Below, piece by piece: positions 18,776 through 62,943 of a stretch of DNA of 64,000 bases. The translations under genes and the position numbers were made by a program. Each line of letters begins with the position of its first letter. The stretch's first letter is position 1. The DNA is from Eubacterium sp. 14-2 (GTDB lineage: Bacteria; Bacillota; Clostridia; Lachnospirales; Lachnospiraceae). The notes under the pieces were generated by a model. The model searched no databases and was not told where the DNA came from. It was given only the letters and a program-made list of their open reading frames with translations. The stretch is taken from the NCBI RefSeq assembly GCF_000403845.2, contig NZ_KE159568.1, positions 559,725 through 623,724 on the forward strand, in the 5' to 3' direction.

Positions 18776-18886
18776 TTATAAGATAAAAAAGAATGCGCCG
18801 CAATAAACATCAACCCCGCGAGCTGCGCATCATTGTTTTTTTCTTCTATAGGAAATCCAACGGAATTTCCTATAGAAGAAAAAAGC
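18776..18886 (-). repeat. Terminator-linked palindromic element, copy A
   Basis: It contains a perfect 20-bp-arm palindrome (18837-18856 with 18865-18884) whose core reads TTCTATAGGAAAT. Next to it is a second hairpin (ATGCGC...GCGCAT, 18793-18830) followed on the minus strand by TTTTTTATCTTATAAG. Copies B-F elsewhere in the window share these blocks. Confidence 0.75.
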
Positions 18887-18911
18887 GGAAACATATCAGA
18901 GACATGTTTCC
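18875..18911 (-). terminator. Terminator after TIGR04086 gene
   Basis: On the minus strand GGAAACAT pairs with ATGTTTCC, followed by GCTTTTTTCTTC. The T-tract is shared with the end of repeat copy A. Confidence 0.85.
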
Positions 18912-18939
18912 ACTCTTTCCAGATCATTTATGTCTGAAT

Positions 18940-19347
18940 TCAGCTTGCCATCCCGCCGGTCATCCCTGATGCTGTGCAGAGCACCAGGGTGGTGGCAAAC
19001 CGCGACAAATCCATATTGATTCCTTTCTGAAATACCACAGAGCCCAGTACCAGAATCAGAAAATAGCAGGCGCCCATGGTCATTCCCCACAGAAACCGTT
19101 TTTGTTTCATAACCTTTCCGCTCAAAAATCCCCCTGTAAATCCTGATAATACATAAATCAGGACAATCCCAATAGAAACAACGCTTTCACTGAGCTGCAT
19201 TTTATAGAGCATGGCAGAGAGAATCAGCAGCAGGGCTCCCGTCACCATATACATAACCAGCAGAATTTTCAATATGGACAATACAGAAATATTCGGTTTG
19301 TTTTCCCCCTTCCCTTTGGCCGAGGCCTTCCATAGTTTCTTTTCCAT
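18940..19347 (-). CDS. TIGR04086 family membrane protein
   Basis: A 135-aa protein with four hydrophobic segments (about 24-50, 57-78, 84-108, 115-133) after a basic N-terminus. The Gly-rich segment LSGFTGGFLSGKVMKQKRFLWG and the end SGMTGG fit the clostridial TIGR04086/YrzE-like family, often found beside the SCIFF and secDF genes, as here. Function is unknown. It has its own terminator. Confidence 0.8.
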   Translation of the reverse strand: MEKKLWKASAKGKGENKPNISVLSILKILLVMYMVTGALLLILSAMLYKMQLSESVVSIGIVLIYVLSGFTGGFLSGKVMKQKRFLWGMTMGACYFLILVLGSVVFQKGINMDLSRFATTLVLCTASGMTGGMAS

Positions 19348-19468
19348 CCCTTTTCCTCCCTCCTGTGGATGTCCTTTTGATTCTATGATATTTTATTCCC
19401 GACCGTTTAAAACTATTCCTGCGAAGAAAAGGGATTTCTAAATTTTTCCTGAATTTTCAGGGAATTCC

Positions 19469-19497
19469 TTGCAAAATCCTCCTGTATCCGGTATATT
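19469..19497 (+). promoter_or_regulatory. Sigma-A promoter of the CorC-type gene
   Basis: TTGCAA, a 17-bp spacer, then TATATT, located 25 nt before the start codon. Confidence 0.65.
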
Positions 19498-19521
19498 AAT
19501 GTATTGAAAGGAGAGATGTAC

Positions 19522-20790
19522 TTGGACTCAGGTGACGTCATACAATTAATTATCATTATTATCTTATTAATGTTATCTGCATTTTTTTCTTCTGCAGAAA
19601 CAGCTTTGACCACTTCTAATAAAATCCGTCTCAGAAGCATGGCGGAAGAAGGTAACAAACGGGCGAAAAAGGTACTGGAGATTACAGATGACTCCGGTAA
19701 AATGCTCAGCGCCATACTGATTGGAAACAATATCGTAAATTTGTCCTCCGCTTCTCTGGCCACCACCCTTGCCACAAAGATTTTCGGCAATGCGGGCGCC
19801 GGAATTGCCACAGGTATTCTGACGGTACTGGTACTGATTTTCGGTGAAATTTCACCCAAAACTTTTGCCACCATCCATGCGGATAAAATTTCCCTGGCCT
19901 ATGCAGGCACAATCAGCGGACTTATGAAACTGCTCACTCCTGTTATTTTTGTTATTAATAAGCTGGCACTCGGTTTTCTGATTCTGCTGCGTGTGGATGC
20001 TTCCGGCGCTCAGAACACCATGACAGAAGACGAACTCCGCACTATTGTGGATGTAAGCCATGAAGAGGGAGTAATTGAAACAGAAGAACGGGAAATGATT
20101 AACAATGTGTTTGATTTCGGCGATGCCCAGGCAAAAGAGGTTATGGTACCCCGTATTGATATGACATTTGCTGATATTAACAGCACTTATCAGGAATTGC
20201 TGGACATTTTCCGTGAAGATAAATTTACCCGGCTTCCGGTGTTTGAAGATTCTACAGACAATGTGGTGGGTATTATCAATATGAAAGACCTTCTTCTCTA
20301 TGAAGATAAAGACCATTTTTCCATCCGCAACATTATGCGAAAGCCCTATTATACTTATGAGCATAAAAATACTGCGGAGCTCCTGTTGGAAATGCGTAAA
20401 TCATCCATCAATATTGCCATTGTGCTGGACGAATACGGAGCAACTGCAGGGTTAATCACGTTAGAGGATCTGCTGGAAGAAATTGTAGGAGAAATCCGGG
20501 ATGAATACGACATGGATGAAGAAGATCCTGTCCAGAAAATCAGTGAACTGGAATATATGATACAGGGTTCTCTGAATCTCAACGACCTGCATGACATTCT
20601 GAATCTGGATCTGGTATCTGACAATTATGATTCGGTTGGCGGTTACGTTATCGGTCTTTTGGATCATCTGCCCACACCGGGCGAATCTGTCACCACGCCG
20701 GAAGGTCTGTTTTTCCGGGTTGAAGATATGGATAAAAACCGGATCAGCAAAATTTTCGTGCGGCTTCCGGAGCCATCCAAAGAAGAATAA
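19522..20790 (+). CDS. CNNM/CorC (HlyC) family membrane protein with CBS pair
   Basis: A 422-aa protein. Residues about 1-185 form the DUF21 (CNNM) membrane domain with 3-4 helices (FFSSAETALTTSNKIRLR, IFGEISPKTFA). Residues about 200-325 are two CBS domains (EVMVPRIDMTFADIN, IAIVLDEYGATAGLITLEDL). Residues about 340-422 are the CorC/HlyC associated domain. Relatives move Mg2+/Co2+ or Na+. TTG 19522 is preferred: AAAGGAGAG lies 8 nt upstream, whereas ATG 19516 would sit directly on that site. Confidence 0.9.
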   Translation: MDSGDVIQLIIIIILLMLSAFFSSAETALTTSNKIRLRSMAEEGNKRAKKVLEITDDSGKMLSAILIGNNIVNLSSASLATTLATKIFGNAGAGIATGILTVLVLIFGEISPKTFATIHADKISLAYAGTISGLMKLLTPVIFVINKLALGFLILLRVDASGAQNTMTEDELRTIVDVSHEEGVIETEEREMINNVFDFGDAQAKEVMVPRIDMTFADINSTYQELLDIFREDKFTRLPVFEDSTDNVVGIINMKDLLLYEDKDHFSIRNIMRKPYYTYEHKNTAELLLEMRKSSINIAIVLDEYGATAGLITLEDLLEEIVGEIRDEYDMDEEDPVQKISELEYMIQGSLNLNDLHDILNLDLVSDNYDSVGGYVIGLLDHLPTPGESVTTPEGLFFRVEDMDKNRISKIFVRLPEPSKEE

Positions 20791-20845
20791 AAAGGATTCT
20801 GCTTTACAGAAATCATGTGATTTCATATTTCATGGTAAAACAGTA

Positions 20846-20901
20846 TTACCCGTTTAATAAAAAAGCTCCGCCCGTGGCGGAGTTTTTTATTAAACGGGTA
20901 A
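20846..20901. terminator. Bidirectional terminator
   Basis: A long palindrome TTACCCGTTTAATAAAAAA / TTTTTTATTAAACGGGTAA with the inner stem CTCCGCC-cgt-GGCGGAG. It serves the convergent CorC-type gene and sfsA; the last codons of sfsA lie inside it. Confidence 0.92.
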
Positions 20902-21618
20902 CAGTCTGACTTCCACAGGCCTGTCCAGCCATATTTCATCCTCTGTAACTCTGCAGTCCCAGGCCAGAACACCCACTCCGGCTTTCTGTACCTGCCGCAG
21001 TGTCTCTCCAAACTCAGGATGGGTTCGGTCATTGGGCTCAAAATACCGGATTCCCTTCATCTGAATTACAAACAGGATATAGCTCTCATATCCCTCTCTG
21101 ACTGCCCGTTCCAGTTCCAGCATATGCCTGATCCCCCGTTCTGTGGGCGCATCGGGAAATCTTGCAATTCCATCTTCTTCCAGTGTAACGCCTTTTACTT
21201 CTATAAAAATTTTTCTCGCTTTTTCCTGTCCTGCTTCCACATAAAAATCTATTCTGGAGCTGCCATATCTGCATTCCGGTTTTATATAAGTAATATCTGA
21301 AAATGGAAAGTCCTCTCCTTCTTTCCTGCGGGCGTACCCTCCCTGTTTCAGCCACTCCCCCACTGCCCTGTTGGGCGCCTGGGAATCCATGTTAATCAGA
21401 GTTTCTCCTTTTCTGACAGTAATCAGATCCCAGGCTGTTTTACGGTTGGGATTATCGCTTTTATCCAGCCATACGGCTGCCCCCGGAACGAGAAGTTCCC
21501 GGCATCTTCCGGTATTTTTTACATGGCATGTTTCCATTCGGCCTTCCAGTTCCACCAGAGCTGCAAAGCGGTTGAGACGTTTCTCAAAACGCCCCGGAAC
21601 AATCTGTGTATATTTCAT
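20890..21618 (-). CDS. sfsA: SfsA family nuclease (sugar fermentation stimulation protein)
   Basis: A 242-aa protein with an N-terminal OB-like part (GRFEKRLNRFAALVELEGR, HVKNTGRCRELLVPGA) and a PD-(D/E)xK-type part (CRYGSSRIDFYVE, then FIEVKGVTLE, about 115-150). E. coli SfsA was named for a sugar-fermentation effect, and family members are now described as nucleic-acid binding or nucleases. ATG 21618 is preferred because GGAG lies 6 nt upstream; the ATG at 21630 overlaps that site. It stands alone. Confidence 0.92.
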   Translation of the reverse strand: MKYTQIVPGRFEKRLNRFAALVELEGRMETCHVKNTGRCRELLVPGAAVWLDKSDNPNRKTAWDLITVRKGETLINMDSQAPNRAVGEWLKQGGYARRKEGEDFPFSDITYIKPECRYGSSRIDFYVEAGQEKARKIFIEVKGVTLEEDGIARFPDAPTERGIRHMLELERAVREGYESYILFVIQMKGIRYFEPNDRTHPEFGETLRQVQKAGVGVLAWDCRVTEDEIWLDRPVEVRLLPV

Positions 21619-21677
21619 CTCAATCTCCATTTTGACCCCGGACCGTCAGGATACCCCGAAAAAGGCTGTGTCCTGTT

Positions 21678-24185
21678 TCAGTCGCCGGGCTCCTGAATCT
21701 GCTTTTCATCCGGAATCCATTTTTTCAGAATCCGGTAAATATCTTTTAAATCAATGGGCTTTGCAATATGTCCATTCATGCCCGCCTGCCTTGCTTTGAG
21801 CACATCGCTGGAAAATGCATTTGCACTCATGGCCACAATGGGAATGATTCTGGCGTCTCCCCGGTTCATCTGCCGGATAGCCCTGGTCATCTCATGCCCG
21901 TCCATTTCCGGCATCTGCACATCGCTCAGAATGATATCGAAATAATTTTCCGGATTTTCCGCAAATTTTTCAATCCCTTCTTTTCCATTCCAGGCGATTT
22001 CAAGTTCTGCCCCGGTAATTCCCAGCAGTTCCTGTGCAATCTCCATATTCAGCTCGTTATCCTCCACCAGAAGAATCCGTACCTCGCCATTTTTGAACTG
22101 GACAGGCTTCCCGGCATCTGTCTCAGACACTTCTGTGGATTCCGGTTCTTCTATCACCTCATTCTGCAGGGGCAGACGTATGATAAAGGTACTTCCCTCT
22201 CCCGGAAAACTGATAATTTCTATGGTTCCGCCCATCATGCTCACAATATTTTTCGTAATGGCCATTCCAAGGCCTGTGCCTTCAATTCCGCCTGTCTGTC
22301 CTGTATCTCCCCGTTCAAAGGGCACAAATATTTTTTCCTGAATTTCCCTGGTCATTCCAATTCCGTTGTCCATACAGTAAAATTCATAAAACCGCCGGTC
22401 GCCTCTCCGGTTTTCTGTCTCTTCCACGCACAGACTGATACTACCGCCCTCCGGTGTAAACTTTATGGCGTTGCCCAGCACATTGGTCAGTATCTGCTGA
22501 ATACGCAGACTGTCAGAAACCACCATTTCATGGGAAATCGAATCAATGTCCAGGGTCATCTCCTGATTTTTAGCAGCAGCCTGTACCTGCATTACAGCTC
22601 CCGCTTCCTGCAGAAGGGTTCTGAGATTAAAAGGTTCCTCATTCAGAACCACATGGCCGCTCTCAATTTTTGACATATCCAGTACATCATTAATCAGGCT
22701 TTTCAGGTGCATGGAAGACAGTTCTATCTTGTGAATACAGTCCTTTAACCGCTCCGGATTATCCAGATTCATTCTGGCAATGGTGGTCATTCCCACAATG
22801 GCATTCATGGGCGTGCGCATATCATGGCTCATATTGGACAAAAACCTGCTCTTGGCCCGGCTTGCATTTTTCACCTGCAGAAGAGATGTTTCCAGCGCTT
22901 CCCGCTGATGAATTTCCTTCGTCTTATCTGTAATCACAACAATCCTGTAATTTCCCCCGCCTCCGGATCTGACATAAATATGAATGCCGAATTCCCGCTG
23001 CTCCCCGGTATGGGGATTGGTAATTCTCCGCTGAAACTGGTAATCCTGACTTTGTTTTATTTCCTCAATGTCCACCTGGTTTTCCAGAAGCCACTTTTCA
23101 ATCAGCCCCTGCTGCTGACGGATTGCCTCCGGGGAATACCCCATAATCCGGCCTGCATTGTTGCTGATATACTCCAGCTCCCCGGTATCCTCATTCTGCA
23201 TAATGAAAATCTCATCCACCATATCTGTCATCCAGCTGAAAGCAGACTGACGTTTCTTATATTCCCGGCTTCCTTTCCACCAGAATAATATAATTACTAC
23301 TGTGTACACCAGAATTTTGCTTAACAGCGCCACCATGGAAATCCGATAACACTCCACCACATTGGTGCGGATGGCCAGACTCCAGTTACTGTTGCGGATG
23401 GGAATGCTTTTTACATACTGAAGTTTTCCTCCGTACAATTTCCAGTAGGAAACTTTTTCCCGGTTCTCCATGGCCTCCCTGATTTCCTCTCCCCCTTTGC
23501 TGACCCAGTCGTTTAATTTAAAATTATCATCAAAGCTCTGGCCTCTGGCTTTTATATTGGCATGGGCCGCCGCCAGAAATCTGCTGTCATACATACAGAA
23601 ATAAAATTTTCCGTCAATGGAATCTCCCTCAATAATATTCTGCATATAGTCAAAATAAACGGAAACCTCAACAGCCCCGCTCCATTCTCCGGTATTGTCG
23701 TTAAAAACAGGCTGCCACACGGTAAAAATCTGAATATTTTCACCCTCTTTCGCCTGATAAATATCTGTCAGCACCTTTCTGCGGCTTTCCTTTAATTCCT
23801 GAAATATGGCAGAATCACTGATATTTTCGGTTCCCTCCCGATTGGTGGAAGCATATGTTCCTTCCGCATCCACAACTCCAATAGCATAGAGCCCGTATAC
23901 TTCCGCAAAAGATTTCAGGCCTTTTACTTTTTCCTCAAGTGCTCCCTGTGTATTCTGCATCCTGTCATTTTCTGCAATGGAACCCGCCAGATTCCATACG
24001 TTGCTCATATATTCGGCAATTTTGCTCTCTGTCAGCCCGGTCTGGTTACTTACGCTCTCTTCCATAATGTCATAGGTGGAAATTGCAGTGACCGCAATAT
24101 CAAACAAAGCCAGCAGCACGCAAAGCAGCTGTACCAGATGATAGGCTGAATAGGGTATCCTCCGCTTCTTTCTGTAACTCTTCAC
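21678..24185 (-). CDS. Hybrid sensor histidine kinase with Cache, PAS and receiver domains
   Basis: An 835-aa membrane protein. TM1 is about 13-37, an extracellular dCache-like sensor about 40-285 (ANIKARGQSFDDNFKL), and TM2 about 288-307. A PAS-like region spans about 320-430 (MQNEDTGELEYISNNAGRIM). HisKA has SNMSHDMRTPMNAIVGM (about 450-465), and ATP-binding boxes are NVLGNAIKF, DNGIGM and GTGLGMAI. A C-terminal receiver (about 700-822) has phospho-Asp in IILSDVQMPEMDG. There is no DNA-binding output, so it probably relays through another partner. GTG 24185 follows AGGGGGAACGGAA. Confidence 0.92.
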   Translation of the reverse strand: MKSYRKKRRIPYSAYHLVQLLCVLLALFDIAVTAISTYDIMEESVSNQTGLTESKIAEYMSNVWNLAGSIAENDRMQNTQGALEEKVKGLKSFAEVYGLYAIGVVDAEGTYASTNREGTENISDSAIFQELKESRRKVLTDIYQAKEGENIQIFTVWQPVFNDNTGEWSGAVEVSVYFDYMQNIIEGDSIDGKFYFCMYDSRFLAAAHANIKARGQSFDDNFKLNDWVSKGGEEIREAMENREKVSYWKLYGGKLQYVKSIPIRNSNWSLAIRTNVVECYRISMVALLSKILVYTVVIILFWWKGSREYKKRQSAFSWMTDMVDEIFIMQNEDTGELEYISNNAGRIMGYSPEAIRQQQGLIEKWLLENQVDIEEIKQSQDYQFQRRITNPHTGEQREFGIHIYVRSGGGGNYRIVVITDKTKEIHQREALETSLLQVKNASRAKSRFLSNMSHDMRTPMNAIVGMTTIARMNLDNPERLKDCIHKIELSSMHLKSLINDVLDMSKIESGHVVLNEEPFNLRTLLQEAGAVMQVQAAAKNQEMTLDIDSISHEMVVSDSLRIQQILTNVLGNAIKFTPEGGSISLCVEETENRRGDRRFYEFYCMDNGIGMTREIQEKIFVPFERGDTGQTGGIEGTGLGMAITKNIVSMMGGTIEIISFPGEGSTFIIRLPLQNEVIEEPESTEVSETDAGKPVQFKNGEVRILLVEDNELNMEIAQELLGITGAELEIAWNGKEGIEKFAENPENYFDIILSDVQMPEMDGHEMTRAIRQMNRGDARIIPIVAMSANAFSSDVLKARQAGMNGHIAKPIDLKDIYRILKKWIPDEKQIQEPGD

Positions 24186-24309
24186 TTCCGTTCCCCCTGC
24201 TTTCTTCCTTTATAATAGAAAATGATACCACATTTTTCCGATTTTTTCCATGGAAACTTACATAGCCTGGCACCGCTCCATTCCGGGGAAACCTGCGCAT
24301 ATTATTTTT

Positions 24310-24499
24310 ATCTTACAGGAAAGATACTTTCATGCTTTAGCGTGACAAGGTCTTTCCTGTAAGAGAACAAAGAATCCTGCTTTGCAGGATTCTCCGCCTG
24401 CGGCGGGTCGCTTTAGCGACATATTTCTTTTCCGCCGCAGTGTGATAATTGTCTTTTATTCTATAGGAAATCCAGAGGAATTTCCTATAGAATAAAAAA
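24310..24499 (-). repeat. Terminator-linked palindromic element, copy B (double)
   Basis: This fills most of the 365-bp gap 24186-24550. One hairpin has perfect arms CTTACAGGAAAGA and TCTTTCCTGTAAG around an inner hairpin TCATGC-TTTA-GCGTGA (24311-24358). A second has TCTATAGGAAAT with ATTTCCTATAGA (about 24460-24490). Between them are GAATCCTGC/GCAGGATTC, the block GTCGCTTTAGCGAC and a GCCGC stem. The left end joins the glgP terminator T-tract. Confidence 0.8.
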
Positions 24500-24533
24500 G
24501 GCGGCTTCAAACCATCTCTGATTTGAAACCGCC
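24491..24533 (-). terminator. Terminator after glgP
   Basis: On the minus strand GGCGG-TTTCAAA pairs with TTTGAA-CCGCC, followed by TTTTTTATTC. The T-tract is the first part of repeat copy B. Confidence 0.9.
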
Positions 24534-24550
24534 CTGCTGTCTCACAGGAA

Positions 24551-26812
24551 TTATTTTAATTTCCAGATATCTTTGTTGTATTCTGCAATGGTTCGGTCGG
24601 ATGAGAAGAATCCTGCCTTTGCTGTATTTACCAGCATTTTCTTCGCCCATGCAGTTCTGTTTTCATAATCTTTGTAGATTTCTTCTTTTTTGGCTGCATA
24701 ATCTTTATAATCCAGAAGCGTCATAAACCAGTCTTTGTTCAGCAGCTCATGATAGAGGCGCTCCAGATGTTCTCTGTGGCCCACTTTCATCATTTCCTCA
24801 CTTACAATAAAGTCCACAGCCTCTTTGATATCCTCATCTTCTTCATAGAATTTCCGGGAAACGTAATCGCCTTTTTCATAATGTTCGATAACGGTGTCGG
24901 AGCTTTCTCCGAAAATGTAGATATTTTCCTCACCTACCAGATCTGCAATTTCCACATTGGCTCCGTCCATGGTTCCAAGCGTTACGGCACCGTTCAGCAT
25001 GAACTTCATGTTTCCGGTTCCGGATGCTTCTTTGGAAGCCAGTGAAATCTGCTCGGAAATATCGCAGGCCGGAATCAGCTTTTCCGCATTGGTTACGTTG
25101 TAGTTTTCCACCATCACCACTTTCAGGTAAGGACTTACCTCCGGGTCATTGTTTACCAGTTCCTGCAGGCACAGAATCAGATGGATAATGTCTTTTGCAA
25201 TGGTATAGGCCGGAGCTGCCTTTGCACCGAAAATGACAGTGATGGGAGTAGCCGGTTTCTTTCCTTTTTTAATTTCCAGATATTTGTGAATCACATGCAA
25301 TGCGTTCATCTGCTGGCGTTTGTACTCATGAAGACGTTTAATCTGAATATCAAAAACAGAATGCTCATCCAGTTCCACGCCCTGCTTTTCTTTCAGGTAT
25401 GCCACAAGATTTTTCTTGTTTTCCTGTTTGATTTCCAACAGTCTGTTCAGGACTTTTTCATCATCGGCAAAGGAAAGAAGTTTCTCCAGTTCGTCTGCAT
25501 TTTTGTGCCAGCCTGTTCCGATAACTTCATCCAGATAGTGGCTTAATCCTTTATTACAGTGCATCAGCCAGCGGCGGAAGGTAATTCCGTTGGTCTTGTT
25601 GTTGAACTTCTCCGGATACAGTTTATAGAAGTTATTCAGTTCGTTTTTCTTCAAAATCTCAGTGTGCAGGTATGCCACACCGTTTACGCTGAAACCATAG
25701 TGAATGTCCATATTTGCCATATGTACCAGGTTTCCCTCGTCAATAATGGCTACGGATCTGTCGTCAAACCTGTCTTTTACAATGGTATCCAGTTCACGGA
25801 TAATGGGCATCAGCTGAGGTACTGCCCGGTTCAGGTAGTCCATGGGCCATTTTTCCAGCGCCTCTGCCAGAATGGTATGGTTGGTGTATGCACAGGTTTT
25901 CGACACAATATCAATGGCGTCATTCATACGGATGCCACGTTCCATCAGCAGACGGATTAACTCCGGAATTACCATACTTGGATGGGTATCGTTAATCTGG
26001 ATTGCCGCATAGTCCGGTAAATCGTAGAGTTTACATCCCTTTGCCTCGCACTCGGAAAGAATCAGGCGTGCCGCGTTGCTTACCATAAAATACTGCTGAT
26101 ACACACGCAGAAGACGTCCTGCATCATCGGAATCATCCGGATACAAAAACAGCGTCAGGTTCTTCATAATATCGCCCTTGTTGAAACTGATTCCGTCTCC
26201 TACCAGATTTTCATCTACCGTTTCAATGTCAAACAAATGCAGCTTGTTGGTTCTGTTTTCAAATCCCGTTACATCCAGGTCATACATTCTGGACTGTACG
26301 GTAAATCCTCCGAACTGTACGGGATAGGTCACGTCAGTTCTGGTAAGCCAGCTCTCTGCTTCCATCCACGGATTTTTGTTTTCTTTCTGCAGACGGTTCT
26401 CAAACGTCTGTAAAAACAGGCCGAAATGGTAATTCAGGCCGATTCCGTCTCCGTTCATTCCAAGGGTTGCCATGGAATCCAGGAAACATGCTGCCAGACG
26501 TCCCAGTCCTCCGTTTCCCAGAGAAGGTTCCGGCTCCACCTGTTCAATCAGGCTGATATCTTTGCCATACTGCGCCAGCATTTCTGCCACTTCATCGTAA
26601 ATTCCCAGGTTAATCAGATTATTGGACAACAGTTTTCCAATCAGAAATTCTGCGGAAATATAATAGATTTTTTTCTTTCCTTCCTGGCTCTCTTTTTCTT
26701 TTGCCATATCTTTTACGATGCCCAGAAGGCCGTAATAAATCTGCTCATTGGTGCAGGCCGCAATATTGTTGCAGCATTTCTGTTCCAGCAATTCTCTTAC
26801 ATTCACACTCAT
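24551..26812 (-). CDS. glgP: Glycogen/starch phosphorylase
   Basis: A 753-aa PLP enzyme that releases glucose-1-phosphate from alpha-1,4-glucan ends. Motifs seen: [19 protein letters not shown] (about 105-123), NYHFGLF, and the PLP-lysine region [19 protein letters not shown] (about 620-638). Length is slightly short for the family but fits clostridial GlgP. The start is ATG 26812 with AGGAGGAAG; an in-frame ATG at 26845 has none. A small hairpin CCGGCAG...CTGCCGG (26857-26876) lies in its leader. It is divergent from an AraC regulator. Confidence 0.96.
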
Positions 26813-27021
26813 TCTTTCTTCCTCCTGCCTGTTTCCCGGCTCCATAACAGTGTTTGCCGGCAGCCCTTCCTGCCGGACGGTATCTGAACTTTTTATGTTT
26901 CGGAATCTCTGTTTTCAGGTTGCCCGAAATTTCTCCCGCTTATTCCGAATCCTTATGTAAATCCTTCCTGTGTTTCGTTTTATTTCACAACCAGAGTATA
27001 ACTCCATTTCCCACATTTTTC

Positions 27022-27051
27022 TTGCAGTATGATGGCAAAATATAGTACAAT
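27022..27051 (+). promoter_or_regulatory. Promoter of the AraC gene
   Basis: TTGCAG, an 18-bp spacer, then TACAAT. Confidence 0.5.
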
Positions 27052-27083
27052 ACTATCAAAAAAAGAAAAAATGGTGGTATCAT

Positions 27084-27956: not shown

Positions 27957-27986
27957 CTATTATCGTGACTGATTCGCTATTCCTTA

Positions 27987-28862: not shown

Positions 28863-28878
28863 TTATTACGTTCAAAGA

Positions 28879-34665: not shown

Positions 34666-34709
34666 CAAACCGTTCAGGTCCCTCATGAATGAGGGACCTG
34701 AACGGTTTG
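34666..34709 (-). terminator. Perfect 21-bp hairpin, probable terminator for ThrE-like gene
   Basis: Arms of 21 bases (34666-34686 and 34689-34709) start CAAACCGTTCAGGTCC, with a two-base loop. On the minus strand it is followed by TTTTTG, so it ends minus-strand transcripts. It joins repeat copy F. Confidence 0.75.
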
Positions 34710-34763
34710 CTGGGCCGAGTGCGGTCGCTTTAGCGACATCTTCTATTCACACGAGTCCGCCTG
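34700..34763 (-). repeat. Terminator-linked palindromic element, copy F (partial)
   Basis: It shares with copy C the block CAGGTC / AACGGTTTGCTG / GTGCGGTCGCTTTAGCGAC / ATCTTCTATTC / ACGAG in the same order and orientation. It contains the hairpin GTCGC-TTTA-GCGAC. The TATAGGAAA core is absent. Confidence 0.75.
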
Positions 34764-45673: not shown

Positions 45674-45718
45674 CTTATTTGTATTATCTATTATAATACA
45701 AATAAGGCAGTAAAACAA
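45674..45718 (-). promoter_or_regulatory. Promoter and autoregulatory operator of the YtrA-type gene
   Basis: On the minus strand: TTGTTT (45713-45718), a 17-bp spacer, TATAAT (45690-45695). Perfect 13-base arms CTTATTTGTATTA (45674-45686) and TAATACAAATAAG (45694-45706) enclose 7 bp and cover the -10. The -35 touches the end of repeat copy C. Confidence 0.8.
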
Positions 45719-45925
45719 GGTCTTTCCTATAGAAGAACAAAGCGGACAGGTCCGCAGGGGCTCCCTGAATTCCCCACTCATGAAAGACCTGGACGGTTTG
45801 CTGCGCCGTGTGCGGTCGCTTTAGCGACATCTTCTATTCGCACGAGCGCGCATAATTGTCTTTTCTCTTACAGGAAATGCTTTCACACGTTAGTGTGACA
45901 AGGTATTTCCTATAAGATAAAAAAT
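45714..45925 (-). repeat. Terminator-linked palindromic element, copy C (double)
   Basis: The longest copy, filling most of the gene-free stretch 45719-46113. From left: TCTTTCCTATAGAAG, hairpin GCGGAC-AG-GTCCGC, the AACGGT/GACCT region also in copy F, GTCGC-TTTA-GCGAC, GCACGAGCGCGCATAATTGTC, then CTTACAGGAAAT...ATTTCCTATAAG around the inner hairpin TCACAC-GTTA-GTGTGA. The right end merges with a terminator T-tract. Bases 45960-46113 show no feature beyond AT-rich DNA. Confidence 0.85.
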
Positions 45926-45954
45926 GGACTACCCGATTTAAAATCGGGCAATCC
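45917..45954 (-). terminator. Terminator downstream of KilA-N gene
   Basis: On the minus strand GGATTGCCCGATTT pairs with AAATCGGGTAGTCC (12 of 14), followed by ATTTTTTATC. It lies about 160 nt after the KilA-N stop. Confidence 0.8.
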
Positions 45955-46113
45955 GTCTATAGGAGCAAAAGTAGTAAACTGGCAGTAAAATCTACCCTTT
46001 TCTTCCTGGAAGTGCCTGAAACACTGCATTTAAACCACTTTTTGAAAATATTTAAAGTTTCAGGTTTGTAACATATATCCAGACTAAATAGTAGTTAAAC
46101 GTCATATTATATA

Positions 46114-46956
46114 TCACTTTTCCTCAATCAATTTTATCTGTTCCGCCGCATTAAGAACATGCAACTGATACTCTGCAATTTCCTTTAAAATCTGAAATCT
46201 TTCTTCCTTATTTCTGCCTTCACGAATCATTTGTGCGTTATGTGTTTCCAAATTAGACAAAACTGTAAGTTCATTTATGGAAGCAAAATCTCTTACGTTA
46301 TTCTTTTTTGCCAATTCAGGATTTTTATCCCTCCATGCTTTTGCCGTAAATCCGAACAATGCAACATTCAAAATATCCGCTTCCTCTGCATATACCAGCC
46401 ACTCCAGATTTTCTTTATAATTTTCTGATGGGATCAGGTAATTTTTAACCGCATCTGTTTGAATCAGATAATTATTTTTAGACAGAAATCTTTTTTCATC
46501 CCACTCAATTTTCTTTGCATCATTCTCAACTTCTTTCAGCCTTTGAAATTCTTTGATCAAATATAGTTTAAAAACAGGGCTGATCGCTGAAGCAAATTCA
46601 AATGCAATATCTTTATGCGCATATGTTCCTCCATATTTTCCACGTTTCACAAATAATCCTGTCGCTTCTGTTTTTTCAATCCATTCTGAAACACTAAGTA
46701 CAAATGTATGTAAACCTGCTTCATTTTTAAAGTGGTCGAATTCGACTACTTTAAAAGCAGGATTATAGATTTGTTCCCACGTACCTAAAAATTCCAAAGT
46801 TGCTCTGTTTCGCATCCAGTTTTTTATAACATCTGCTCCTCGTGACTCACCAACTTTGGCTTTTGCAATATCAGTAATACAGATATAATCATCAAAATTT
46901 TCCTCTGAAACAGTAATATTGATGTTTTGCACCACAATTACTTTATTTTTTCCCAT
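46114..46956 (-). CDS. KilA-N domain protein, phage-type
   Basis: A 280-aa DNA-binding-type protein. Residues about 15-130 match the KilA-N fold seen in phage and large DNA virus proteins (YICITDIAKAK, IKNWMRNRATLEFLGTWEQI, GKYGGTYAHKDIAFEFASAI). The C-terminal part is helical with EYQLHVLNAAEQIKLIEE at the end. The gene is visibly more AT-rich than its neighbours, and it is bracketed by copies of the dispersed repeat. It is a likely horizontally acquired single gene. ATG 46956 follows GGAGGAG. Confidence 0.88.
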   Translation of the reverse strand: MGKNKVIVVQNINITVSEENFDDYICITDIAKAKVGESRGADVIKNWMRNRATLEFLGTWEQIYNPAFKVVEFDHFKNEAGLHTFVLSVSEWIEKTEATGLFVKRGKYGGTYAHKDIAFEFASAISPVFKLYLIKEFQRLKEVENDAKKIEWDEKRFLSKNNYLIQTDAVKNYLIPSENYKENLEWLVYAEEADILNVALFGFTAKAWRDKNPELAKKNNVRDFASINELTVLSNLETHNAQMIREGRNKEERFQILKEIAEYQLHVLNAAEQIKLIEEK

Positions 46957-47037
46957 CCTTCTCCTCCCATATAGCACTGATTAAAATCTTATTACTCATG
47001 TAGAAGTATATCACATCATTTTTACTTTTTCAATTAA

Positions 47038-47091
47038 TGACAAACGTTAGCGTAACTGGGTCTTCCTGTGAGATAAAAAAACAACCGTCTC
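47038..47091 (-). repeat. Terminator-linked palindromic element, copy D (short)
   Basis: It contains AAACGTTAGCGTAACTGGGTC followed by TTCCTGTGAGATAAAAAAA, matching the right half of copies C and E. The left half is missing. The A-run (T-run on the minus strand) joins the terminator of the small membrane-protein gene. Confidence 0.65.
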
Positions 47092-47112
47092 CGCAAAATA
47101 CGAAAACGGTTG
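47084..47112 (-). terminator. Terminator after the opp operon
   Basis: On the minus strand CAACCGT pairs with ACGGTTG, followed by TTTTTTTATC. Confidence 0.75.
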
Positions 47113-47382: not shown

Positions 47383-48405
47383 CTATTTGTCATAAAGATG
47401 GCAGACCACATAATGTCCCGGTTCTACTTCACGCTGAACGGGAACTTCCTTTTTGCACTTCTCCATGCAATGGGCACAGCGGGTATGGAATTTGCACCCT
47501 TCCGGCGGATTTGCAGGAGAGGGAATGGAACCTTTCAGTACAATCCGTTCCTTCTTCACCTTCGGGTCAGGAACGGGAATGGCAGAAAACAAAGCCTTTG
47601 TATAAGGATGAAGGGGATTTTTAAAAATATCCTCCGTTTCACCATACTCCACCAGATTTCCGAGGTACATAACGCCTACCGTATCAGAAATATGTTCCAC
47701 CACCGACAGGTCATGGGAGATAAACAGGTAGGTCAGCTTATACTGCTCCTGCAGTTCTTTCAGCAGGTTGATAATCTGTGCCTGAATGGACACATCCAGC
47801 GCCGACACAGGCTCGTCACAGACGATAAATTCCGGATTTAATGCCAGCGCACGGGCAATGCAGATACGCTGACGCTGCCCGCCGGAAAATTCGTGGGGAT
47901 ACCGCTCCTTATGGAAGGGCTGTAATCCGCAGTTGTCCATAACTTTATCAATATAATCGTTAAATTCGCCCTTTGACACCAGATTGTGTTCTCTGACCGC
48001 CTCGCCTATAATTTCTCCAACAGGCAGACGGGGAGACAGGCTGGAAAAAGGGTCCTGGAAAATAATCTGCATTTTCGTACGCATGGTGCGCATTTCCGCA
48101 TTGGAAAAGTCATACACTTCTTTTCCGTTAAACAGCACCTGGCCTCCGGTCTTCTCTCCGGCAAGACGGAGAATGGTTCGCCCGGTAGTGGTTTTTCCGC
48201 AGCCGGATTCTCCCACTAGCCCCATGGTTGTACCGCGTTTCAGATTAAAAGTAACGCCGTCCACAGCTTTCACATGCCCTGTCACTCTGGAGACCATCCC
48301 GCTCTTAATGGGAAAATATTTTTTCAGATGGTTCACCATCAGAATATACTGGTCGTCATAGATCAGGGGCTCCAATGCAGTTTCTGTTATTTTTCTGTCA
48401 GCCAT
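47383..48405 (-). CDS. oppF: Oligopeptide ABC transporter ATP-binding protein OppF
   Basis: A 340-aa ABC ATPase. Walker [19 protein letters not shown] (about 62-79), signature FSGGQRQRICIARAL, Walker B FIVCDEPVSALD and switch His in ISHDLSVV. The C-terminal oligopeptide/dipeptide extension has the [4Fe-4S]-type cysteines GCKFHTRCAHCMEKCKKE. The ATG follows directly on the oppD stop. It couples ATP hydrolysis to import through OppBC. Confidence 0.96.
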   Translation of the reverse strand: MADRKITETALEPLIYDDQYILMVNHLKKYFPIKSGMVSRVTGHVKAVDGVTFNLKRGTTMGLVGESGCGKTTTGRTILRLAGEKTGGQVLFNGKEVYDFSNAEMRTMRTKMQIIFQDPFSSLSPRLPVGEIIGEAVREHNLVSKGEFNDYIDKVMDNCGLQPFHKERYPHEFSGGQRQRICIARALALNPEFIVCDEPVSALDVSIQAQIINLLKELQEQYKLTYLFISHDLSVVEHISDTVGVMYLGNLVEYGETEDIFKNPLHPYTKALFSAIPVPDPKVKKERIVLKGSIPSPANPPEGCKFHTRCAHCMEKCKKEVPVQREVEPGHYVVCHLYDK

Positions 48406-54529: not shown

Positions 54530-54573
54530 ACAATTTCCTCCTTTTCTTCTGAGTCCTGGCAGACAGGTTTCTA

Positions 54574-54625
54574 TATTATGTATGTAGTTACAACTACATA
54601 CATAAAGGAGGGTACCCTCCTTTTG
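54574..54625 (-). promoter_or_regulatory. Palindromes in the opp leader
   Basis: A perfect palindrome TATGTATGTAGTT / AACTACATACATA (54575-54602) is followed by AAGGAGGGTACCCTCCTTTT (54604-54623). Both lie in the predicted 150-nt leader of oppA and could be an operator and an attenuator-like hairpin. Confidence 0.6.
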
Positions 54626-54687
54626 CGCGCCTTTGTTCTGCCGTCTTATGCTTTATTTTAACATAGATTTTGACTCAATATGTAAAC

Positions 54688-54716
54688 ATTATATATTTCT
54701 TCTGATTATTTGTCAA
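54688..54716 (-). promoter_or_regulatory. Consensus sigma-A promoter of the opp operon
   Basis: On the minus strand TTGACA (54711-54716), a 17-bp spacer, TATAAT (54688-54693). Both hexamers are perfect. Confidence 0.85.
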
Positions 54717-54758
54717 TTTGAACCTTATATTTCCAGGATATTTTTATTTAAGTTCAGC

Positions 54759-54886
54759 CATAGCCTGCCTCCGGGCGAATCATGCTCGCAGGAATGAGCA
54801 CACGATGCAGGCTATGAGCGGAGCGCCTGTTTCCGGGCGAATCATGCTCGCATGAATGAGCGCACGGTGCAGGCTATGAGCGGAGC
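54759..54886 (-). repeat. Two tandem copies of a 62-bp palindromic repeat
   Basis: Copies start at 54771 and 54833 with CCGGGCGAATCATGCTCGCA and end in GCAGGCTATGAGCGGAGC. CATAGCCTGC (54759-54768) pairs with GCAGGCTATG (54807-54816), and TGCTC with GAGCA inside. It lies directly after the stop of the 182-aa gene. It is unrelated in sequence to copies A-F. Confidence 0.8.
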
Positions 54887-54888
54887 TC

Positions 54889-55437
54889 TTAGGCATTTTT
54901 CTCCCACTCCAGTTTCCTGAGCCGCCGGCTCATCTGAAATGAAGCTGTAAATACCCCACACTCCAGCAGGAGAAATGCCGCAAATCCAGCTGTTTTCCCT
55001 TCCAGACCATTCCTGACAGCAAAAATCAGTTCTCCGGCCAGAGATACCCCGCTGCAGATACATGCAAATATGGCCCGTCCGGGAATCTGCCCCACACTGG
55101 CCTTCCACACATAGGCTCTCACCGGATTGCCTCCTGCACTGAGCCTGCAAAGCCCCCAGCAGACACTGATACCTGCAATCAGATTCACTACATAAGGAAG
55201 AATCACATAGGCACAGTTGATGGAACCCGGCGCCTCCACACTTCCTGCCGCTGCCAGAGAACCCATCAGCACAGTACACAGGCCCCAGAGTTTCGCCAGT
55301 TCCCGGCGCCTTTCCTGCTCTGTGCCCTGCCAGGCATACAGTTCTCCCCTGTATTCATAGTTTCCTTCCTGATTTTTCTGAAATGATTCCAGATACGCTC
55401 TGCGGTTCTTTTTTTTCTCTGTTTTCTTCTCTGCCAT
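54889..55437 (-). CDS. Uncharacterised 182-aa membrane protein
   Basis: No family recognised. The N-terminus is very basic (KKTEKKKNRRAYLESFQKN), with GNYEYRGELYAWQG and a charged helix (TEQERRRELAKLW). Four hydrophobic segments follow (about 50-66, 75-99, 118-138, 147-167), and the tail is basic. GGAAGG precedes ATG 55437, which is 20 nt after the MATE stop, so it is the second gene of that operon. Confidence 0.75.
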   Translation of the reverse strand: MAEKKTEKKKNRRAYLESFQKNQEGNYEYRGELYAWQGTEQERRRELAKLWGLCTVLMGSLAAAGSVEAPGSINCAYVILPYVVNLIAGISVCWGLCRLSAGGNPVRAYVWKASVGQIPGRAIFACICSGVSLAGELIFAVRNGLEGKTAGFAAFLLLECGVFTASFQMSRRLRKLEWEKNA

Positions 55438-55457
55438 ATTCCGAATCCTTCCCTGTA

Positions 55458-56813: not shown

Positions 56814-56835
56814 ATACTTACCACCGCCCGATTGT

Positions 56836-56888
56836 CTGCAGGAGATTCAGATGTCAGAATCACTCTTCTGACACCTGAATCCCTGCAG
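56836..56888 (-). other. Long hairpin in the MATE leader
   Basis: CTGCAGG/GATTCAG/TGTCAGAA (56836-56859) pairs with TTCTGACA/CTGAATC/CCTGCAG (56866-56888) over 22-23 positions with one bulge and one mismatch. It lies between promoter and ribosome site, ending 23 nt before the start codon. Confidence 0.7.
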
Positions 56889-56936
56889 GCATTTATGATT
56901 GGTATCCGATACCTGTCCCTTTGCCCTCAGGGCATA

Positions 56937-56964
56937 TTATTACATCTGCCCGGAACAAAGTCAA
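56937..56964 (-). promoter_or_regulatory. Promoter of the MATE operon
   Basis: On the minus strand: TTGACT (56959-56964), a 16-bp spacer, then TAATAA. Confidence 0.5.
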
Positions 56965-57014
56965 CCGGATTTAAAAATCTGCCTCCTTAATCTGCAGGTT
57001 CTTTATTTCCGTGG

Positions 57015-59612: not shown

Positions 59613-59772
59613 AAGGGTTCCTCCTTCCCTCACATTACTTCGGCAGGTAAATATCAGACAGACCAGGCAGATAAATGTTACGATATTAACCTCCGGAGTA
59701 ATAGTATGGATAAACAGCCTTCCTGCCATGCAGGGAAAAGCTGCTTTTCTTTTCTGTTCTATTTCATGTATA

Positions 59773-59815
59773 ACAATATCACTTGTTGTTAGCACTGTCA
59801 AGAGGTGAGTGCTAA
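59773..59815 (-). promoter_or_regulatory. CIRCE (HrcA) operator and promoter of clpB
   Basis: TTAGCACTG-N9-GAGTGCTAA (59789-59815) matches the CIRCE consensus except one base (G for C at position 9). On the minus strand TTGACA (59796-59801), a 17-bp spacer, TATTGT (59773-59778) overlaps it. The rest of 59613-59913 shows no gene. Confidence 0.9.
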
Positions 59816-59913
59816 AATTAATTACAAAGAATATTGAAATAAGTTTTTGCATATGCCATAATGCCAACAGGCAAAAAGAAATCACAACTTCCATATCTGG
59901 TTTCATTCTTCAT

Positions 59914-60192
59914 TCAATATTCTGTTTGATTTATGAAACAAAATTCCGGGCAAGCCAATGAGCAACGCCATCTTCCTGGCATAATCTCCAGCCATTGTTC
60001 GTTTGTATACATTTCAGTCTGATACACGCAATGAAACATACCCTTATATTTTTCATACAATGGTTTAAGTTTGTGCGGCTTATCAATACAGGTAATATAG
60101 AAAAGATTGCCTGATTTTAAGTCAGTAACCGCGTTTACTGTATTAGTACGAATATTTGCTATCAGAATTTCCTCCGTCACATTATCAACCAC
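59914..60192 (-). CDS. Short uncharacterised protein or gene fragment
   Basis: A 92-aa frame starting at GTG 60192 with GGAG 5 nt upstream. The sequence (IANIRTNTVNAVTDLKSGNL, LKPLYEKYKGMFHCVYQTEM) looks like a real protein, with aromatic residues and three Cys near the C-terminus (WRCSLACPEFC). No known family was recognised. It could be a stand-alone small protein or the left-over of a longer gene. It is AT-rich compared with its neighbours. Confidence 0.5.
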   Translation of the reverse strand: MVDNVTEEILIANIRTNTVNAVTDLKSGNLFYITCIDKPHKLKPLYEKYKGMFHCVYQTEMYTNEQWLEIMPGRWRCSLACPEFCFINQTEY

Positions 60193-60254
60193 AAATGCTC
60201 CATTATATACAAAATAATCAGCTTATATAACCGGAAACAGGATACTGGTTTAAA

Positions 60255-61046
60255 TCATGGTGCAACCTCTTTCGTGTAATGTACTGTGACCGTCTGATAG
60301 GGAATCTCAATACTGTTCTCTCTGAATCCCTCCACCAGGGCAATCCTGATATCACTGCAGGCTTTAAAACTGTCATTCAGATTTCTGGTCCAGATGGTCG
60401 TTTTCAGTGTAAGGCCATCCGGCGTATAACCGCTGACAGTAACGCTGCTCTTCTCTGTTTCTATGGTCAGTTCATGTTCCTCACATATTTTTTTCATGAC
60501 AGCTACGGCTTTTTCAATGTCTGTGTCATAAGATACTGTAATTTCTATAAAGTTTCCCACATTTTCCGTAAAATTAGTATTGATAATCACTGCTGAATCC
60601 ATAATGGAATTGGGCACAATGCAGCATTCCCCGTTAAACTGCCGGATTACCGTATGACGTATGGTAACATCTGTTACCATACCTTCCGCAAGTACCGTCC
60701 CGCCCTGAAGCACCCTTATTTTTTCATTTACATTATAAGGCCTGGATGCTGAGACAGAAATGCCGCTTATGACATTTGCCAGAGCCTGCTGGGCGGCAAA
60801 AGTTGCAATGGCCACAATCAGGGTACCGCTCTGGAGCAGAGCTTTACTGATATCCTTCGTGATTTCAAACTGCTGAACCAGACTGTAAATGATCACAACA
60901 TCAATCATTACATTGAAAATACTTTTTAAAAACCGCAGATGGATGGCATTTGTCTTTTTTGATACGATTCTGTAAATCAGGTTCACCAGCTGATTCAGGG
61001 CCAGCCCAACCCCTATAAATAAACCTATTTTCACTAAAAAATGCAT
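60255..61046 (-). CDS. Small-conductance mechanosensitive channel, MscS family
   Basis: A 263-aa membrane channel that opens under tension. Three hydrophobic segments (about 4-25, 42-63, 75-105) come first, the last with the pore-helix pattern ATFAAQQALANVISGISVSA. The MscS beta domain follows (about 108-170, VTDVTIRHTVIRQFNGECCI), then an alpha/beta end. GGGAGGAAAG precedes ATG 61046. Single gene. Confidence 0.92.
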   Translation of the reverse strand: MHFLVKIGLFIGVGLALNQLVNLIYRIVSKKTNAIHLRFLKSIFNVMIDVVIIYSLVQQFEITKDISKALLQSGTLIVAIATFAAQQALANVISGISVSASRPYNVNEKIRVLQGGTVLAEGMVTDVTIRHTVIRQFNGECCIVPNSIMDSAVIINTNFTENVGNFIEITVSYDTDIEKAVAVMKKICEEHELTIETEKSSVTVSGYTPDGLTLKTTIWTRNLNDSFKACSDIRIALVEGFRENSIEIPYQTVTVHYTKEVAP

Positions 61047-61075
61047 ACTTTCCTCCCATCATGAATCCTGTCCGA

Positions 61076-61104
61076 TTGCAGCACCCTGGCCCCTGTGGTA
61101 TAAT
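61076..61104 (+). promoter_or_regulatory. Promoter of the SGNH lipoprotein gene
   Basis: TTGCAG, a 17-bp spacer, then TATAAT. Confidence 0.7.
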
Positions 61105-61110
61105 GTCAGC

Positions 61111-61161
61111 ACGGGCATCGGCTTTTCTATCAGGTTATATTATACCTGTCAGAAGGCCCGT
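61111..61161 (+). other. Nested hairpin in the lipoprotein leader
   Basis: ACGGGC (61111-61116) pairs with GCCCGT (61156-61161), enclosing CAGGT (61131-61135) and ACCTG (61144-61148). It begins almost at the predicted transcription start. Function unknown. Confidence 0.45.
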
Positions 61162-61203
61162 CTTCAATCTTTAATTACATTTTATGGAAGGGTGAATAAA
61201 ACC

Positions 61204-62187
61204 ATGAAACAAAATATTTTCAAAACAGACTTTTTTTCAGCTGAAAAACGTAAAAACAGGGCAGGAACCGTTCTGTGCTGTTTTCTGCTTATCCTGGGAC
61301 TTTTTGTGGGAGGATGTTCTGCTCCGGAAAAAAACACAGCCTCCTCTGAACCGTCCGCTCCGGAAGTTTCGGAAGAAACAGACAGTTCTGCCACAGAATC
61401 GGAAGATTCTTCACCGGAAAACTCAGATTATGAAACTTCTGCATCAGAAGATTCCAGTTCATCAGAAGAAGACTTTGACTTCAGCCAGACCTTTGATTTA
61501 AAAGTGCCTGACCCGGCGGCAGGGGAAAATCCCCGCATTCTGTTTGCAGGCAACAGCCACACTTTTACCAACAATTTACCGGACATGTTCAAAGAAGTGG
61601 TCATAGGAATGGGACGCCAGTGTGAAGTACAGGAGCTTTCCGAAGGATATTATACACTGACACAGTTTGCAGACACTTCCGATGAGCTGGGCGCAGCCCT
61701 GAATCAGAAACTGACGGATGAAAACTGGGATTTTGTGATTTTGCAGGAAAATACAAACGACGCATTTTCTTATGCGGAAGAAAACATGCTGCCCGCCGCT
61801 GCTGCTCTGGATGAAAAAATCCGCGCTGCCGGAGGACAGACCGCACTGCTTATGACCTGGACTCCCAAAGACGGAGCCGGCATTATGAGCCCTGAACTGG
61901 TACAGTCTGTTCTGGCAGAGAACACCATGGCAGTTGCCGAAAATCTGAACAGCCTTCTGATTCCAGGAGGAATCGGTTTTATGCGCAGTCTGGAGCAATA
62001 TCCTCAGATTGAGCTCTGGGCAGAAGACGGTATGCATCCTTCGCCCGCAGGCTCCTATCTGGCAGCATGCACCGCATATGCGGTAATTTTCCAGGAATCT
62101 CCTGCAGGCTGCAGCTACACTGCAGATCTGGACAGTGAAACAGCCGCACAGCTTCAGGAACTTGCAGCCGGATTCCTGACAAACTAA
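61204..62187 (+). CDS. SGNH/GDSL-fold lipoprotein (DUF4886-like)
   Basis: A 327-aa exported lipoprotein: the signal ends FVGGCSAP (Cys about 36), followed by a Ser/Glu-rich linker of about 60 residues. The catalytic domain (about 105-325) has RILFAGNSHTFTNNLP (block I Ser), VILQENTNDAF (Asn) and, near the end, EDGMHPSPAGSYL (Asp-x-x-His), as expected of SGNH hydrolases. The substrate is unknown; cell-surface polysaccharide esters are possible. ATG 61204 is preferred with GGAAGGGTG upstream; a GTG at 61192 overlaps that site. Confidence 0.85.
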   Translation: MKQNIFKTDFFSAEKRKNRAGTVLCCFLLILGLFVGGCSAPEKNTASSEPSAPEVSEETDSSATESEDSSPENSDYETSASEDSSSSEEDFDFSQTFDLKVPDPAAGENPRILFAGNSHTFTNNLPDMFKEVVIGMGRQCEVQELSEGYYTLTQFADTSDELGAALNQKLTDENWDFVILQENTNDAFSYAEENMLPAAAALDEKIRAAGGQTALLMTWTPKDGAGIMSPELVQSVLAENTMAVAENLNSLLIPGGIGFMRSLEQYPQIELWAEDGMHPSPAGSYLAACTAYAVIFQESPAGCSYTADLDSETAAQLQELAAGFLTN

Positions 62188-62449
62188 TCCTGCGGCAGTG
62201 TCAGCTGATCATCCCGATAAAATCAGATACCGGTTTCTTTTCCTCTGCTCCCTGGCAGCCTGTACTTTATCGGTAAGAAAATGGAAATTATACAGAAAAC
62301 CAGAACAAATGCAAAATTTTTACATTTTATCTCTCTGCCATCTTGATTCTTCCAGAAAATGGAAGTAGAATAATAGTTAGCGCTGAGCAGGATTCTGTTT
62401 ACATATCAGAATTCTGCCAGCCATTACATTATGTCAAGGAGATGAAATT
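62188..62449 (+). promoter_or_regulatory. Intergenic region with bacteriohemerythrin promoter
   Basis: TTGATT (62343-62348), a 17-bp spacer, TAGAAT (62366-62371) is a candidate promoter. CCGATAAA (near 62214) and TTTATCGG (near 62268) could form a loose stem after the lipoprotein gene. Nothing else is seen. Confidence 0.45.
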
Positions 62450-62851
62450 ATGTACGAAATGAAACCAGAATACTATACTGGTATCGCAGCTATCGACAAA
62501 GAGCACACAAGGCTGTTTGAACTGGCAGAAGAAACGTATCAGTTACTGAACGATGATTTTATCCAGGACAAAACTGACAGCCTGATTCACCTGATTTCCG
62601 AGTTGATTAACTATACCAGAACTCACTTTGCTCATGAAGAGGAATACCAGAAAAGCATAAACTACGCAGGATTGAAAGATCACATGAGCCTCCACCGTAA
62701 ATTTGAAGATAAGCTGATGGAATTCGATCTGGATTCCCTGGGAGATGACTTCAACAGCCAGAATGACACAGTAGAAGAACTTCTGGGATTTCTGACCAAC
62801 TGGCTGGTTACCCATATCATGCAGGTGGATATGCTCTATGTACCGAAATAA
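62450..62851 (+). CDS. Bacteriohemerythrin
   Basis: A 133-aa single-domain hemerythrin. Ligand residues: IDKEHTRLFEL (His), THFAHEEEYQKS (His, Glu), HMSLHRKFE (two His) and HIMQVDML (His, Asp). It binds O2 at a di-iron centre and may serve as an O2 scavenger or sensor in an anaerobe. It is related to the N-terminal domain of the hybrid at the left end of the window. AAGGAGATG precedes the start. Confidence 0.94.
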   Translation: MYEMKPEYYTGIAAIDKEHTRLFELAEETYQLLNDDFIQDKTDSLIHLISELINYTRTHFAHEEEYQKSINYAGLKDHMSLHRKFEDKLMEFDLDSLGDDFNSQNDTVEELLGFLTNWLVTHIMQVDMLYVPK

Positions 62852-62855
62852 TACC

Positions 62856-62943
62856 ATTTGCACGAGCGCGCATATTTGTTTTTATTTTATAGGGAATGCT
62901 TTCACACGTTAGTGTAACAGGGTCTTTCCTGTATGATAAAAAA
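62856..62943 (-). repeat. Terminator-linked palindromic element, copy E
   Basis: GCACGAGCGCGCATATTTGT, then TATAGGGAATGC, the inner hairpin TCACAC-GTTA-GTGTAA, and CTTTCCTGTATGATAAAAAA. It aligns over its whole length with the right half of copy C. The right end joins the T-tract of the PspC gene terminator. Confidence 0.85.

Follow-up and report, generated by a model that had tools for sequence, protein, structure and literature searches.

At six places (A to F) in the window, by which we mean the whole stretch of 64 kb that was analysed, pieces of one repeat family lie on the minus strand. The family has two parts, a palindrome (K) and a downstream module (M):

18885..18913 (-): A, gene-side terminator hairpin of the gene at 18940-19347
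18837..18884 (-): A, K palindrome with a short loop, including T-tract and A-tract
18791..18835 (-): A, relic of module M, type 2 (typed by comparison)
18759..18790 (-): A, T-tract and collapsed K (ATCTTATAAGAT), ending in a short leftover from the end of a different element (GATTAGGGTGTCAAAAG, 18759-18775)
24500..24533 (-): B, gene-side terminator hairpin of the phosphorylase gene at 24551-26845
24454..24499 (-): B, first K palindrome, short loop
24371..24451 (-): B, module M of type 3 (31.7 bits for the model match at 24399-24439) with terminator-like hairpin
24305..24370 (-): B, second K palindrome, long loop
24292..24304 (-): B, first few bases of a truncated module
34711..34761 (-): F, module M on its own, K absent (53.1 bits for the model match at 34713-34761)
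34667..34708 (-): F, perfect terminator hairpin of module M, then a TTTGTTTTT-like tail
45926..45954 (-): C, gene-side terminator hairpin of the KilA-N gene at 46114-46977
45861..45924 (-): C, K palindrome, long loop
45802..45852 (-): C, module M with a 51-nt fold, 71.2 bits
45735..45801 (-): C, tail hairpin of module M, with TTTGTTC at its end
45716..45734 (-): C, left half of another K
47082..47112 (-): D, gene-side terminator hairpin of the ABC transporter gene at 47383-48405
47044..47081 (-): D, T-tract and left half of K
62944..62975 (-): E, terminator hairpin ahead of K, upstream gene at 63238-63924
62879..62943 (-): E, degenerate K, long loop
62860..62878 (-): E, cut-off module

Read on the minus strand, gene-side hairpin, T-tract and core of K follow each other without a gap at A, B, C, D and E. 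B has two complete palindromes, C has one and the left half of another at its far end, D has a left half only and the copy at E is degenerate. F (34700-34763) consists of a lone module M with its own terminator hairpin; K is absent, and on reading the sequence neither the TCTTAYAGGAAA core nor a separate terminator in front was found there. The sequence-only reading had described the same repeat at all six places: this holds for the hairpin, T-tract and core of A to E, and not for F, which is module M without K. The pattern AGGAAA-N4-34-TTTCCT has six exact matches in the window, compared to a mean of 0.37 and a maximum of 3 in 100 shuffles; two of the six (23447 and 45081) fall within long open reading frames and look like chance matches. 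The window also contains short tandem repeats of about 45-nt units with TCAGGGCTCCTCCC (16477-16672) and two tandem copies of a 62-nt unit (54763-54886).

The genome from which the window is taken (G000; 4.0 Mb, 4 contigs, 99.93% complete) has the same pattern at 177 places, compared to 45 for a reversed control pattern. BLAST with the C element as query returned 92 matches at E up to 10, some of which are the other strand of the same palindrome. On contig C1, most strong matches are on the plus strand as far as about 1.73 Mb and on the minus strand from there on, and on C2 most are on the minus strand; this pattern probably reflects the gene strand bias of the replication arms. For the analysis of K we used 58 copies from G000, a sample mainly from contig 1 (one false match, L229 at position 507, was removed from 59); D and E are missing from this set because the K finder requires the conserved core. 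Twenty-two copies have a short loop, 33 a long loop and three a loop of a third class. The order of the parts is T-tract, four bases, TAYAGGAAA, loop, TTTCCTRTA, four bases and A-rich stretch.

The two arms of K change together. Core position 3 is a T-A pair in 26 of the 58 copies and a C-G pair in 22; outer position 1 is T-A in 28 and C-G in 23, outer position 2 is C-G in 27 and T-A in 26, and outer position 4 is A-T in 25 and C-G in 18. Over the ten outer arm positions a mean of 8.28 are paired, compared to 6.99 (sd 0.15) after permutation of the right arms across copies, and 13 of the 58 copies are fully paired (permutation mean 2.1, maximum 7 in 5000 permutations). Short K copies from other genomes (n=83) have a mean of 6.18 paired positions compared to 5.33 (sd 0.14) on permutation; three are fully paired, which is no excess (mean 0.67, by chance up to 5). 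Such likeness of the arms within a copy may result from selection on the hairpin or from template switching in quasi-palindromes, a mechanism that can keep arms alike. Further out, there is little pairing beyond T opposite A, and we infer for this reason that the T-tract comes mainly from the target and the A-rich stretch from the element. Single copies hint that the T-tract of the target could be copied into the right arm; this idea is weakened by the G at outer position 7 of the T-tract, which has a C partner in only 3 of 17 copies, and by the bases between T-tract and core, which differ from the unit-less allele. The inner hairpin of the long loop had been described as covarying from the sequence alone. 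When 29 long-loop copies were parsed, one pair position had changed on both sides (G-C to A-T, three copies) and the remaining changes were one-sided, so that covariation is weak here; the strong covariation is in the K arms and in module M.

K seems to be also the landing site for a second short element with GATTAGGGTGTCAAAAG ends, found in or beside K arms at L047, L104, L113, L118, L130, L150 and L062. At L047 and L104, CTTATAG or CTATAAG is repeated on both sides of this element; A of the window retains one of its ends only (18759-18775).

An intrinsic terminator, defined as hairpin plus T-tract, precedes 38 of the 42 gene-side K copies and 11 of the 16 module-side copies. The rule is lenient, with 23% of random T-runs passing it (453/2000), but the opposite face of the same K copies has such a structure in only 14 of 58 cases and random positions in 169 of 2000. 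For short K copies of other genomes (n=80), a terminator was found on the oriented side in 61 cases, on the other side in 38 and on either side in 72. The longest open reading frame within 350 nt of gene-side K has the same strand as K in 37 of 42 cases and the other strand in four; in one case there is none. The statement from the sequence alone that every copy follows a minus-strand gene therefore agrees with the list of open reading frames for A to E, and for the genome sample it applies to most copies rather than to all. The link to terminators, which that reading had proposed to check across the genome, is clear in the sample of gene-side copies when compared with random T-runs. F is different: the hairpin of the module is the sole terminator seen behind its gene, and the same place in the related genome G028 has another module-type terminator hairpin.

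Module M is GC-rich, lies behind the A-rich stretch of K and has a 51-nt three-stem fold. The fold tested has three stems, an internal loop that is almost constant and an A-rich linker that stays unpaired on just one side; the alignment comprised 32 sequences derived from 96 distinct regular-expression matches in the fetched loci. Of all cells of this alignment, 98.1% pair. Two-sided changes are found at 7 of the 15 pairs, a number reached by 37 of 500 shuffles, and comprise 54 cells, compared to 18.0 (sd 4.5) in the shuffles and reached by none of the 500. A second set of 34 model matches (30 loci, 31 matches in other genera), in an alignment that had been fitted to the structure, has two-sided changes at 9 of the 15 pairs and in 32 cells; its shuffles average 3.5 pairs and 6.5 cells and never reach the observed values. 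The feature matches no curated Rfam covariance model in the window and in eight loci: the window has no match at gathering score, and the eight loci, searched at E up to 1, gave a single match with an E of 0.5 that falls far short of its gathering score. At the end of complete modules there is a terminator-like hairpin with a T-rich tail, often TTTGTTC, and in chains the next K follows. Cut-off units are numerous, with D, E and F in the window and more in the genome.

With strict filters, a sample of 299 genomes of the family has matches to the M model in 67, or in 66 of 298 genera, and in a sample of the class the model was found in 5 of 391 genomes, all of the same family. The strict short-K pattern was found in at least 92 stretches of named genomes; among the 80 matches listed, many have Lachnospiraceae in their titles and three come from Butyrivibrio isolates, and on the strength of these titles we take the family to be Lachnospiraceae. 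The surroundings of M were analysed for 27 of the 34 model matches (26 in other genera), leaving aside two in L294 (the own genome), the second matches of L299, L300 and L306, and L311 and L319, the latter two because of masked stretches. By the same rule as above, a terminator is in front of M in 18 of the 27, and an inverted repeat with a score of at least 13 lies between terminator and M in 14 of the 27, compared to none of 540 letter shuffles. The palindrome arms vary widely between these loci, and in other genera the order terminator, palindrome, M recurs with arms of unrelated sequence. L301, L313, L321 and others have a terminator and M and no clear K.

Filled and empty sites were compared mainly between G000 and G028, a genome in synteny with the window and for the most part 79-91% identical to it. 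One part differs: positions 1-6086 are 98.8% identical to G028, with the rest at about 79-91%, and probably represent a recent transfer between lineages. There are 18 K copies in 464 kb of G000, 6 in 500 kb of G028 and none in reversed sequence. Nine of the 16 composites of G000 (eight by script, C by reading) and two of the six of G028 were comparable; eight of the nine have no K in G028, and both from G028 are absent from G000. At C2:704155, the two genomes have different composites at the same terminator, and at A, G028 has a different palindromic piece. At C2:625400 and C2:630984 the gap in G028 is filled by other genes or another terminator, which shows the absence of the unit only. At D, C2:546940, C2:690630 and opposite C1:2449755 of G028, the unit-less allele retains hairpin and T-tract with other sequence right behind; a fifth unit-less allele (G017 opposite G005) has kept the hairpin, and the tail behind it is poor in T. 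The block from D to C (45716-47081), including the KilA-N domain gene at 46114-46977, is wholly missing from G028, and at this site the terminator of the ABC transporter gene directly adjoins the promoter-side sequence of a GntR gene.

The gene end in front of B was located in 26 genomes. G000 and G005 each have a K-M unit that points in the direction of the gene, the terminators in front of it being different, and the remaining 24 have no such unit; among these, G012 has a module relic and G003 has a unit that is reversed and at the facing gene. In G028 and G018 the hairpin of G000 is kept and the unit is missing together with the T-tract, and B may therefore have been lost by deletion in these two genomes. 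G018 and G028 are 97-100% alike over an alignment of 189 kb. Their K sites show a single difference, at a place where the sequence of G018 is shorter; this looks as much like a loss as like an insertion, and no new insertion between near-identical strains was caught in this alignment. Neither a target duplication nor a constant right end was demonstrable in these diverged flanks. The comparison shows turnover of sites. The outcomes that the sequence-only reading had named as speaking against it, no link to terminators or plain vertical descent, were both looked for and did not occur.

By the models used, the usual drivers are absent from G000, which has no match to the Y1 transposase (Y1_Tnp, PF01797; E up to 0.001), to the reverse transcriptase (RVT_1, PF00078) or to group II introns (Intron_gpII, RF00029). 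In 29 genomes of the genus, Y1_Tnp is found in 18, RVT_1 in 24 and Intron_gpII in 19. Of the 17 genomes with at least 12 matches to the C element, five have no RVT_1 (G000, G002, G005, G010 and G017) and seven have no Y1 (G000, G002, G009, G010, G012, G018 and G022), although each single absence is weak evidence as several of these genomes are drafts. A Y1 transposase as driver was rejected on its absence from G000 and on six Y1 loci of other genomes, in which a motif search found neither M nor the K palindrome within 1.5 kb on each side; a reverse transcriptase or group II intron was rejected as there is no match in G000. Carriage by phages or plasmids was also rejected: viral contigs had no short K and the C element matched no phage or plasmid record. 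With Y1 transposase and reverse transcriptase both absent from G000, these two obvious drivers are not needed at present, and what remains is a driver that was recently lost or another enzyme.

We consider it probable that the K-M unit, a small non-coding repeat, is a non-autonomous mobile element that inserts directly behind intrinsic terminators and is one member of a family-wide kind. An element that targets terminator T-tracts had been one of two readings offered from the sequence alone and it fits best, given the dispersed and nested copies, the turnover of sites and the unit-less alleles with a terminator; module M, the formation of chains, the distribution across the family and the missing drivers go beyond it. 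The other reading, a host-kept RNA 3'-end module, with K and M in read-through transcripts as a back-up terminator or RNA stabiliser, appears unlikely as the main story because the unit lies past the gene's own terminator, although a secondary role is possible, as at F, where the module's terminator is the only one seen behind the gene. The covarying fold of M that is kept across genera and the terminator-like hairpin at the end of every complete unit are in agreement with such a module; the near-complete turnover of sites at about 80-90% identity and the absence of a K-M unit pointing in the direction of the gene from 24 of the 26 orthologous gene ends are not, and a covarying hairpin could equally serve as a recognition site in DNA.

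Were the copies mere relics, formerly mobile and now inert, the turnover would reflect ongoing deletion. The many cut-off units, in the window (D, E, F) as elsewhere in the genome, and the apparent losses at B and between G018 and G028 would suit this, but four sites of the other genome have hairpin and T-tract followed by unrelated sequence and were most simply never occupied, and in 13 of 58 K copies all ten outer arm positions still pair; we regard pure decay as quite improbable. Even less credible to us is a spread without any transposase, in which T-tracts and palindromes recombine or template-switch and terminators swap their downstream pieces: T-tracts common to element and target, ragged unit ends and arms kept alike within a copy are in line with it, yet it would leave unexplained why K and M have a fixed order and direction and why M has a family-wide fold.

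For a mobile repeat behind terminators, the following course can be proposed. The unit consists of palindrome K, an A-rich stretch with the capacity to pair to the T-tract that precedes K, module M and, at its end, a terminator-like hairpin and T-rich tail. A protein encoded elsewhere would act in trans and recognise K and M as hairpins, and the unit would be joined behind a hairpin and its T's in the direction of the gene; pairing of its A-rich stretch with the T-tract of the target may help in the choice of the site. The unit's own tail has the same form as the target and could receive further units, which would explain the K-M-K-M chains, as each unit ends in a hairpin and tail fit for the next. 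The cost of insertion would be low, since a spare terminator is supplied that can become the terminator of the gene, as F suggests. We take the turnover to reflect insertion for the most part, rather than loss. A broader generalisation is tentative and rather doubtful at present: a family-wide class of mobile DNA that uses terminators as landing sites through M and K, the A-rich foot of K being able to pair with the T-tract, is moved by an enzyme that is neither Y1 nor reverse transcriptase and stacks spare terminators behind host genes.

If the proposal is right, small mobile DNA of a large class would, in this family, have a safe place to settle immediately behind terminators. The repeats would reshape the 3' ends of genes, which bears on terminator prediction, on the annotation of 3'-UTRs and on the comparison of strains. 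The mobiliser would combine enzyme and target in a new way, and a search for it is feasible in genomes that have many copies but few candidate enzymes. The 51-nt module itself provides a covariance model with no Rfam counterpart found here.

No description of the K-M repeat was found in the open-licence PMC literature. Insertion after intrinsic terminators was reportedly described for group IIC introns in a paper of 2007. According to the sections available of a further source, the target of these introns is a terminator stem-loop followed by T's (PMC7161350), and the insertion point of K-M is likewise behind a terminator hairpin and T's; unlike these introns, the K-M unit is short and has neither intron domain V nor a reverse transcriptase, neither of which is present in the genome. 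BOX, RUP and SPRITE of pneumococcus are short dispersed repeats that are regarded as parasitic; BOX is modular and SPRITE is a hairpin with a T-rich tract that resembles a terminator (sections of PMC3049150). They differ from K-M in sequence and fold, by description in these sections rather than by direct alignment, and SPRITE is itself terminator-like, whereas the K-M unit sits behind the terminator of another gene and carries a second one. In a word search of the accessible text, PMC3733652 has no mention of Clostridia, Lachnospiraceae, Firmicutes or terminator, and PMC10969869 none of Firmicutes or Clostridia, with terminators mentioned for SPRITE.

REPINs are palindromic doublets in extragenic space with compensatory hairpin changes and are thought to be moved in trans by RAYT (sections of PMC3116915). 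K resembles them as a palindromic unit dispersed in extragenic space, but the genome of the window has no Y1 transposase and those sections of the source do not mention terminator targeting. MITEs are short, non-coding and mobile in trans; the K-M unit is short and its sites turn over, and its mobility in trans is putative. The halves of K flank M in inverted orientation within chains, the ends of single units differ and the diverged flanks gave no readable duplication; terminal inverted repeats around the whole unit and direct target repeats are not demonstrable here. We do not file K-M under REPINs, group IIC introns or MITEs, because the defining driver is absent or a target duplication is not demonstrable. 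QMITE2 of Coxiella, a MITE of 150-190 bp that is often behind genes and serves as landing site for another element (sections of PMC5896051), resembles the K-M unit in length and in its position behind genes, and the K-M unit also appears to be a landing site.
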